Source: Candidatus Thorarchaeota archaeon (GTDB taxonomy: Archaea; Asgardarchaeota; Thorarchaeia; Thorarchaeales; Thorarchaeaceae). From it: a stretch of 34,779 nt of DNA. A model generated the notes under the pieces. That model ran no database searches. It saw only the letters and a program-made list of their open reading frames with translations, and was not told the DNA's origin. Location of the stretch: NCBI GenBank assembly GCA_004524435.1, contig SDNO01000005.1:1-34779 (forward strand). The letters are read 5' to 3'. How positions within the stretch are numbered: position 1 is the first letter of the stretch; each line of letters starts with the position of its first letter. A program made the position numbers and the translations under genes. This document shows positions 1,563 through 13,217 of this stretch, piece by piece.

Positions 1563-1632
1563 TGAATGGCGCAACACGCAACAGCATACCACATAGGGGA
1601 GAGTAGTGTGTTCAAAAAGAGGCAGGAGGTGC

Positions 1633-1734
1633 TTACGTTGCTTCCAACGCAAGCACTTCTTCATGAGAGAGGGACTTGTTCTCGAAGTGGGCACCCTTGT
1701 CCTCTCGTTCTTCAGCGATAGGCCGAGAGATCAT
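1633..1734 (-). CDS. Micro-ORF 3, 33 aa: MISRPIAEEREDKGAHFENKSLSHEEVLALEAT
   Basis: ATG with AGGAGA upstream (AGGAGATAGACTACAATG); directly follows micro-ORF 2; not in the ORF track because it is short. Confidence 0.5.
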   Translation of the reverse strand: MISRPIAEEREDKGAHFENKSLSHEEVLALEAT

Positions 1735-1740
1735 TGTAGT

Positions 1741-1824
1741 CTATCTCCTGAAGTACGCGTAGGTAAGAGCCTCAGTTGAATCGGTGACCTTCCTTGTCTT
1801 GGTCTTGTCCTTAGCAAGTGCCAT
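1741..1824 (-). CDS. Micro-ORF 2, 27 aa: MALAKDKTKTRKVTDSTEALTYAYFRR
   Basis: SD GAGGTGA upstream of ATG (GAGGTGAAGAAATCATG); paralogous to micro-ORF 1 (MAL...ST-E/K-A..YAY). Confidence 0.6.
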   Translation of the reverse strand: MALAKDKTKTRKVTDSTEALTYAYFRR

Positions 1825-1831
1825 GATTTCT

Positions 1832-1933
1832 TCACCTCAGAACTGTATAGTATGCATAGCTAATAGCCTTGGTAGACTGAATGGTCTTGTTCTTCTTCTC
1901 GGAGTCAGTTCGATTGTTGATTGTTAGAGCCAT
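1832..1933 (-). CDS. Micro-ORF 1, 33 aa: MALTINNRTDSEKKNKTIQSTKAISYAYYTVLR
   Basis: ATG with GTGA 6 nt upstream; TATA-like element about 35 nt upstream; paralogous to micro-ORF 2. Confidence 0.6.
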   Translation of the reverse strand: MALTINNRTDSEKKNKTIQSTKAISYAYYTVLR

Positions 1934-1965
1934 GATGTTTCACAAGAAATACTGTTCAGAATCAG

Positions 1966-1973
1966 TATATAAT
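1966..1973 (-). promoter_or_regulatory. TATA-box-like element for the micro-ORF cassette
   Basis: Plus-strand tatataat (minus ATTATATA), about 33-40 nt upstream of the micro-ORF 1 ATG. Confidence 0.5.
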
Positions 1974-2004: not shown

Positions 2005-2030
2005 GTCACAAATTGTGACTATCTAGATAG
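2005..2030. promoter_or_regulatory. Adjacent palindromes, possible operator
   Basis: GTCACAA-A-TTGTGAC (2005-2019) followed by perfect CTATCTAGATAG (2019-2030), upstream of the TATA box; related half-site GTCACACAA at 1992. Confidence 0.4.
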
Positions 2031-2240: not shown

Positions 2241-3089
2241 TCATGGGCTGGAGTATATAAACTCCTGCGCTGAAATGCCCAACTTTGTCCACGTTTTCGG
2301 TAGCTGTTGGTATACCCTGTGCCCCGCAGAGAGCATTGATCTAAAGGTGTGAACTGAACTGAAGTTGGAAAGAAACAGCTCCCATCCACGCAGATAGAAA
2401 TCGGCGTATGATTTCGCGAGGTTCTCTAGCCCCTCCTCGAGAAGGATCGCGTGGATTCTCGTTCGATTGCAGGTCCAGATATCCGAATCATAGCCCATCA
2501 GACTGAGGAGTCTTACAGGAGAAGGGGAAACTCTCCAGTTGATGCGACGGATGACGACATAGAAGTCAATGCCGACACGATCCACTACCGACATGGGAAG
2601 ACCGTCAAGAACCGACCCCAGGTCCAGAAGACTCTTCAAGTCAATCTCGCGAATTCTATCAGCAGGTGGAATCTTGTCTTGATGGGGCTCTCCAAAGAGT
2701 ATTCGCGTTGATGCAATCTGAGGAGGGACATATTCAGGGAGCTCTGAAAGGGCGTTAAGACTGACGAGCTGAATCCGGGGGATATGAAGAGGATTTGGCA
2801 TTGCTTGAAGGAAGTCCTGCTCATACTCCGCAGAAACTCTCATTGCTGACTGAAATGCGTCCACTCCACCGAGAATCTTGGCGTTGTTGTGAGTTGCATA
2901 ATGAATATCGACATCACTTATTGTTGGGACGTAGTCGATATCAGAGTCCCAACTCTTTACCGCTGAACCTTTTGCATATGCATAAGTGACTAATTCACCA
3001 AAGGCGGCCTGAAGTATCCCTGACCAGACTGTCAAAGACTGTTCAACTTCTTCCTTTGCCTGTGCACGATATTCCTTGGGATTTTTCAG
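2241..3089 (-). CDS. Nucleotidyltransferase-fold protein
   Basis: GSAVKSWDSDIDYVPTISDVDIHY resembles the GS...DxDxD NTase motif. The ORF track starts at TTG 3035; an in-frame CTG at 3089 has AGGAGGGG 5 nt upstream and adds LKNPKEYRAQAKEEVEQS. Confidence 0.7.
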   Translation of the reverse strand: MKNPKEYRAQAKEEVEQSLTVWSGILQAAFGELVTYAYAKGSAVKSWDSDIDYVPTISDVDIHYATHNNAKILGGVDAFQSAMRVSAEYEQDFLQAMPNPLHIPRIQLVSLNALSELPEYVPPQIASTRILFGEPHQDKIPPADRIREIDLKSLLDLGSVLDGLPMSVVDRVGIDFYVVIRRINWRVSPSPVRLLSLMGYDSDIWTCNRTRIHAILLEEGLENLAKSYADFYLRGWELFLSNFSSVHTFRSMLSAGHRVYQQLPKTWTKLGISAQEFIYSSP

Positions 3090-13109: not shown

Positions 13110-13217
13110 GCCCCTGTAGTGTAGTTCGGCCTAGCATCCGAGACTGTCAAGCCTTGGCGCTTGCTGTCTTGGAGCAGACCTCTCGGGACCCGGGTTCGAA
13201 TCCCGGCGGGGGCGCCA
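13110..13217 (+). tRNA. tRNA-Asp (anticodon GUC) with a 30-nt intron at canonical position 37/38; CCA encoded
   Basis: Acceptor GCCCCTG/CGGGGGC; spliced loop CUGUCAC; intron 13150..13179; BHB-like CTGT/GCAG 4-bp helix with CAA and ACC bulges. Confidence 0.92.

Follow-up and report, generated by a model that had tools for sequence, protein, structure and literature searches.

A multi-copy family of micro-ORF cassettes with a dedicated promoter in Thorarchaeota

Introduction

Can three open reading frames (ORFs) of about 30 codons each, lying end to end in an archaeal genome, be genes, and if so, what could their products do? The question is raised by the first two kilobases of a 34,779-nucleotide stretch of DNA from a Candidatus Thorarchaeota archaeon (assembly GCA_004524435.1, contig SDNO01000005.1, positions 1 to 34,779), hereafter called the window. 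Here, we describe the cassette formed by these micro-ORFs, its relatives, and the signals that surround it. We then weigh the roles that the encoded peptides may play.

Three micro-ORFs in tandem

All three ORFs lie on the minus strand. ORF1 (1933-1832) and ORF2 (1824-1741) encode basic microproteins that begin with MAL, of 33 amino acids with a pI of 9.9 and of 27 amino acids with a pI of 10.0, respectively. ORF3 (1734-1633) specifies an acidic microprotein of 33 amino acids and pI 4.9 with the conserved C-terminus EVLALEAT. The gap between ORF1 and ORF2 is 7 nt and that between ORF2 and ORF3 is 6 nt. An initial annotation, made from the sequence alone, had reported these three consecutive ORFs, gaps of 6-7 nt, and an acidic third product; the sequences are identical to those given there, and the sole slip is the cassette end, placed at 1934 rather than at 1933.

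The proposal that ORF1 and ORF2 are tandem paralogs is borne out. Their similarity exceeds what composition would provide (local score 51, reached by 0 of 5000 shuffles), and a single family profile, in which both sequences are themselves included, detects ORF1 with an E-value of 2.3e-13, ORF2 with 1.3e-10, and their counterparts throughout the family. The MAL peptides are cationic, with a median charge of +5/+6. An AF2 model of the ORF1 product predicts a disordered tail plus a short helix at residues 21-30 (mean pLDDT 69).

A family confined to one archaeal lineage

The profile, called A1 and built from 33 MAL peptides, matches all 47 genomes in the window's archaeal family (MAGs of Thorarchaeota from 13 genera), with 1-14 hits each, copy numbers being those of profile searches of draft genomes. 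It matches none of the 148 other genomes of the phylum. Among the loci fetched from the family there are ~300 homologous micro-ORFs, against none in those 148 genomes, which places the observation far beyond chance. The claim to gene status had been made to depend on homologs with a conserved reading frame in related genomes; such homologs exist, and the claim survives. At the DNA level, searches find a second copy in the window's genome and copies in most genomes of the same family. When 257 Gb of public genomes were scanned for the ORF3 tail, 12 loci emerged, at least 11 of them in Asgard MAGs, with Thorarchaeota in most titles. Three of the loci (L205, L209, L210) come from isolate RBin_111 (WJMJ01), which is titled Lokiarchaeota and matches G018, a member of the window's Thorarchaeota family; this MAG is likely mislabelled.

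Comparison of 110 cassettes reveals a common anatomy. Specifically, ORF1 products follow the form MAL(A/T)xN(N/S)R, a variable basic middle, and STxAxxYAY(x)xR; ORF2 products follow MALAK, a variable middle, and STxAIxxAYFRR; and ORF3 products have a variable hydrophilic part followed by EVLALEAT. The order MAL-MAL-EVLALEAT recurs in most genera, so the MAL-MAL-acidic arrangement seen in the window is kept across genera. Other cassettes consist of a single MAL ORF, MAL-MAL, MAL-MAL-MAL, or MAL-EVLALEAT, and there are forms in which extra micro-ORFs stand ahead of an MFS gene.

The cassette has no match in Pfam, NCBIfam, PHROGs, PDB, or Rfam. The suggestion that it recalls peptide-precursor or small-regulator operons likewise led to no match among known systems of either sort. 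Lineage-limited small proteins that gene callers miss have been found by Ribo-seq in Methanosarcina mazei (PMC11456600). The family described here differs from those small ORFs in being multi-copy, apparently co-regulated, homogenised, and equipped with a dedicated promoter.

Purifying selection in all three frames

As befits a family of translated small proteins, relatives show purifying selection on the reading frames. In disjoint pairs of homologs, in-frame dN/dS is 0.42 for ORF1, 0.37 for ORF2, and 0.47 for ORF3, and the other frames give 0.9-1.2. In the same kind of pairs, pS exceeds pN in 36 of 38 cases for ORF1, 38 of 40 for ORF2, and 13 of 13 for ORF3 (sign tests, p 1e-4 to 1e-9); the copies are homogenised within genomes, so these pairs are not all independent events. 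Only in the annotated frame does dN/dS fall far under 1, and the idea of gene duplication under selection is upheld. Selection is distributed unevenly. The ends of the MAL peptides are more conserved than their middles, with dN/dS at the start, middle, and end of 0.41, 0.60, and 0.31 in ORF1 and of 0.14, 0.59, and 0.28 in ORF2. ORF3 shows 0.56 over its first part and 0.13 over its last nine codons.

A dedicated promoter

The TATA-like element noted ahead of the ORFs is confirmed as TTATATAC (1972-1965), 31 nt before ORF1. It lies within the TATA box, TTATATACT (1964-1972, minus strand), which has one match in the window where 0.03 are expected. Upstream on the same strand (1979-2009) lie direct repeats with a 13-bp period: GTGAC at 2009-2005, GTGAC at 1996-1992, and GTGGC at 1983-1979. 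These are joined by a palindromic, operator-like element, GTCACAATTTGTGAC (2005-2019, minus strand), that is conserved, in different genera, ahead of most stand-alone cassettes and whose genome-wide pattern hits lie almost all at cassettes. Most stand-alone cassettes thus have in common the arrangement GTCACAnnnTGTGAC-N8-GTGAC-N8-GTGGCT-N4-6-TATATAC. The core pattern of repeats plus TATA occurs in 42 of the 47 family genomes and in 0 of the 148 other genomes of the phylum, and the reversed control gives 0. We consider it close to certain that the cassettes form a genuine gene family, multi-copy and served by a promoter of its own.

Promoter hits also occur outside known cassettes, namely at further operons of the MFS gene MFSb, two of them with divergent micro-ORFs, and at a single gene whose product is repeat-type or bactofilin-like. 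At L224 (G010:C6, 59202-59229), a P1-like palindrome and a GTGAC half-site, without the GTGGCT-TATA part, precede a gene for a 411-aa repeat protein that is bactofilin or polymer-like. A second promoter-like element with the same half-sites, P2, lies ahead of MFS genes; G020 and G019 also have it ahead of micro-ORFs that are followed by GNAT acetyltransferase genes. The GGTCA..GTGACC block in the MFS leaders was considered as a riboswitch or other RNA element and rejected: its spacing does not preserve the frame, and it resembles a second promoter with the same half-sites. P2-type elements without micro-ORFs stand directly before a small two-gene operon that lacks an assigned identity (L244; G007:C4, 15418-15467) and directly before a GNAT gene (L253; G003:C40, 59022-59071), and these two sites are possible further members of the regulon. 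The third cassette of the window's own genome (L145, G000:C217) has three MAL-type ORFs under a P3-type promoter, GGTAAGGCAAACCTTTATAT; the strict P3 pattern is rare.

Signals embedded in the coding ends

Each ORF has a plausible ribosome-binding site, as had been claimed. That of ORF1 is GTGA (1940-1943, minus strand) in a short 5' leader, and the context TTGTGAA-N5-ATG of the ORF1 start is conserved in most cassettes. For the other two ORFs, inspection of the sequence and a systematic test identify Shine-Dalgarno elements that overlap the preceding gene: on the minus strand, GAGGTGA (1838-1832) overlaps the last codons of ORF1, and AGGAGATAG (1749-1741) overlaps the Arg-Arg-stop of ORF2. Across the family, MAL ORFs that precede another ORF mostly end in AGG or AGA, forming a strong Shine-Dalgarno. 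The mean match is 5.7 at the ends of the 159 MAL ORFs with a next ORF versus 4.0 at the 37 without one (p=8e-14). Many of these 37 keep a terminal Arg or Lys, some by means of CGC or CGT codons. Thus, the basic end appears to be kept for the protein and its codons chosen for coupling. Hairpins that sequester the Shine-Dalgarno at MAL ORF ends were rejected because these Arg-rich ends have no clear RNA-structure excess over a synonymous null; a small subset of last ORFs gave p=0.02.

The end of ORF3 is different, and here the initial annotation underrated the third gene. EVLALEAT is the most conserved stretch, and it overlaps a covarying hairpin (1626-1659, minus strand) made of the last 8 ORF3 codons, the stop codon, and 7 nt downstream. 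Its 14-bp stem is paired in 84% of alignment cells, compared with 31-50% in slid controls, and 31 cells are double-changed versus 7.5 in shuffles (0 of 500). The hairpin scores z -3.7, and across the family native ORF3 ends are more stable than synonymous variants by 9.2 kcal/mol (p=5e-10). Where Glu and Val codons differ at the third base, the flank differs to match, which indicates that both protein and RNA are constrained at this end. A T-run (1614-1618, minus strand) follows the hairpin to give a terminator-like 3' end, and a T-rich stretch occupies this position in nearly all copies; a simple terminator scan did not flag it. A stop-codon hairpin as a general rule for last ORFs was rejected, as outside ORF3 such structures are only weakly above shuffles.

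Exporter neighbors and peptides before pumps

Some cassettes adjoin exporter genes. Specifically, 12 lie before MFSa, an MFS_1/MFS_3 gene of Mef, EntS, and Tap-like type, usually at +6 nt, and 11 lie before MFSb. Among nine MFSa hits in 12 genomes, a micro-ORF precedes every one whose upstream sequence was examined. Among 30 MFSb loci in 18 genomes, those with at least about 57% identity mostly have P1/P2 elements and often micro-ORFs, and about 18 more distant MFSb paralogs with upstream sequence have neither. MFS genes stand beside about a quarter of cassettes only. G004 and G012, both at least 95% complete, possess MAL peptides and no MFSb at 1e-30.

One explanation, which we regard as unlikely, is that the micro-ORFs are leader-peptide attenuators: their translation state, set by drug or amino-acid stalling, would control the gene downstream, as in the mef/msr or trp operons, and the EVLALEAT hairpin would be a terminator melted by the ribosome finishing ORF3. 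The adjacency to MFSa and MFSb fits this notion, pumps of the Mef/EntS/Tap type are a classic target of such control (PMC4335068), and the covarying hairpin overlaps both the coding end and the stop of ORF3. However, the MAL-MAL-EVLALEAT type found in the window has no conserved gene directly downstream, the genes at that position being mostly unrelated to each other. RNA structure shows no clear excess over the synonymous null at the other, Arg-rich ORF ends, apart from the p=0.02 of the small last-ORF subset. What separates micro-ORF and MFSb is the promoter-like P2, not an evident conserved RNA fold, and a leader acting in cis would hardly call for the five near-identical stand-alone copies that one genome contains. 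The mef(E)/mel attenuator with its leader peptide Mef(E)L (PMC4335068) shares with the cassettes a short ORF before an MFS efflux gene and hairpins in the leader region. The micro-ORFs described here differ: they are 27-36 aa long, are conserved in amino acids at both ends, mostly stand alone with their own terminator-like end, and often have a second promoter-like element before the MFS gene. In several genomes, a RimJ/RimL-like GNAT gene follows the cassette at a distance of 650-870 bp and on its strand (L012, L015, L051, L057, L088, L146, L182, and L187); given this recurrence, the trio type may have some tie to a gene downstream.

The peptides could instead be exported. The MAL peptides would then be leaderless antimicrobial or signalling peptides that leave by the MFS pumps, and the acidic third product would be an immunity protein or partner. 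We consider this quite unlikely. In its favor are cationic peptides of 27-36 aa in multi-peptide operons without leader or modification genes, exporters beside some cassettes, and a variable middle between conserved ends. Most cassettes have no pump beside them, though, and no signal sequence or membrane segment is apparent in the MAL peptides. Moreover, the peptides are hydrophilic, with GRAVY of about -0.5 to -0.65 (median about -0.5), whereas aureocin A53-like leaderless bacteriocins have a mean hydrophobicity of 0.16 (PMC11580447). The peptides are thus cationic but, judged on GRAVY, not hydrophobic in the manner of that class. Like the cassette products, those bacteriocins are short, cationic, leaderless, and sometimes encoded several to an operon (PMC11580447); here, by contrast, no ABC or immunity gene is seen, and the genes occur in every genome of the family. 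Hydrophilicity also sets them apart from the hydrophobic, membrane-spanning peptides of Ldr/Ibs-like type I toxins. Both attenuation and export are most plausible for those variants that are linked to MFS genes.

Copies that evolve in concert

The window's cassette adjoins rps12-rps7, and the same or neighbouring translation genes lie near cassettes in G007, G018, G001, and G016. Other copies are syntenic between genera at polX, and G007 and G018 share a copy at cbf5. Within G007, and likewise within G018, paralogous copies have 89-98% identity, and orthologous sites are 83-84% alike. Dispersed copies from the three syntenic loci cluster with others of the same genome rather than with those of the same locus; in the copy tree, those of G018 form one clade (support 95), and those of G007 are less well resolved. 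Similarity between paralogs ends ~50 bp upstream of the promoter core and ~20 bp past the hairpin, as judged from edges inspected by eye. These alignments point to a 0.4-kb unit that evolves in concert.

Multiple copies in each genome, similarity that stops abruptly at both edges, and contigs that often break within the cassette might also be expected of a selfish or MITE-like dispersed repeat carrying ORFs by chance. Yet, rather than occupying variable sites, several copies share sites across genera (rps7 and polX, with cbf5 in two genomes) and are homogenised there, and three reading frames are under purifying selection. Searches of phage, plasmid, and viral contigs by pattern scan and tblastn gave no match, and a viral or plasmid origin was dropped on that basis. 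The selfish repeat is very improbable and largely refuted. Integration next to tRNA genes was also rejected: what look like tRNA halves beside some copies are recognised as tRNAs neither by ARAGORN nor, except at L017, by Rfam. Least probable of all is a structural or regulatory RNA with incidental ORFs, for which strong DNA conservation of the promoter and ORF1 start and the covarying 3' hairpin could speak, and against which stand the codon-position pattern, the frame-specific dN/dS, the lack of any Rfam match at the cassette, and structure clearly above the synonymous null only at ORF3.

Two further features of the window deserve mention. At 13110-13214 (plus strand), Rfam calls a 105-nt tRNA that ARAGORN misses and that probably contains an intron. 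At 2241-3035 (minus strand), a protein that matches nothing in Pfam, and that is conserved beside the G001 cassette as well (L077), has the motif DSDIDY..DVDIHY, which suggests a nucleotidyltransferase-like fold.

A possible trans-acting stress response

The explanation we tentatively favor, somewhat short of an even chance, is a family-specific, co-regulated microprotein and efflux response whose peptides act in trans. The notion is that a regulator would read the GTGAC repeats and switch the copies on together. Coupled re-initiation would carry ribosomes from one ORF to the next, so that two basic microproteins and one acidic microprotein could be made in fixed proportion. Inside the cell, these would act in trans as abundant small partners of a larger target, be it the ribosome, RNA, or a regulator. 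They might constitute one arm of a xenobiotic or translation-stress response, with the MFS pump as the other. Action in trans is proposed for the window's type because no conserved gene lies directly downstream and the transcript has a terminator-like end; the xenobiotic or translation-stress role is drawn from the efflux link. The grouping of dispersed copies by genome speaks for a role of dosage. The intracellular target is conjecture, based on peptide charge and on the predicted disordered tail and short helix. No regulator of the GTGAC repeats was found, which counts against this explanation, as do the lack of an exporter beside most cassettes, the absence of MFSb from G004 and G012, and the recurrent GNAT gene. 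Precedent for a small peptide that acts in trans and is tied to a multidrug efflux operon comes from peTrpL of Sinorhizobium (PMC7298713); that peptide, however, derives from a bacterial trp attenuator, whereas here the family is multi-copy and archaeal and no attenuator is seen.

A more elaborate version of the trans-acting response is possible but doubtful when taken as a single joint claim. In it, dispersed, concertedly evolving micro-operons would form an operator-controlled, family-wide response in which a fixed set of two basic peptides and one acidic peptide assembles, or acts jointly, in trans to protect against chemical or translational stress, a dedicated MFS pump takes part, and the ORF3 C-terminus is dual-coded as the transcript-end hairpin. 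We know of no system with this make-up.

These micro-ORFs occur in every examined genome of an Asgard lineage with their own promoter and operator, and yet they are missing from the protein and RNA libraries searched, probably because the members are only 27-36 aa long. Small-ORF cutoffs can thus hide multi-copy, strongly selected genes. The end of ORF3 provides a clear case of a coding terminus that doubles as a covarying RNA hairpin. For the biology of these archaea, the cassette offers a handle on Asgard regulation and stress response and makes peptide-linked efflux control readily testable in an archaeon.
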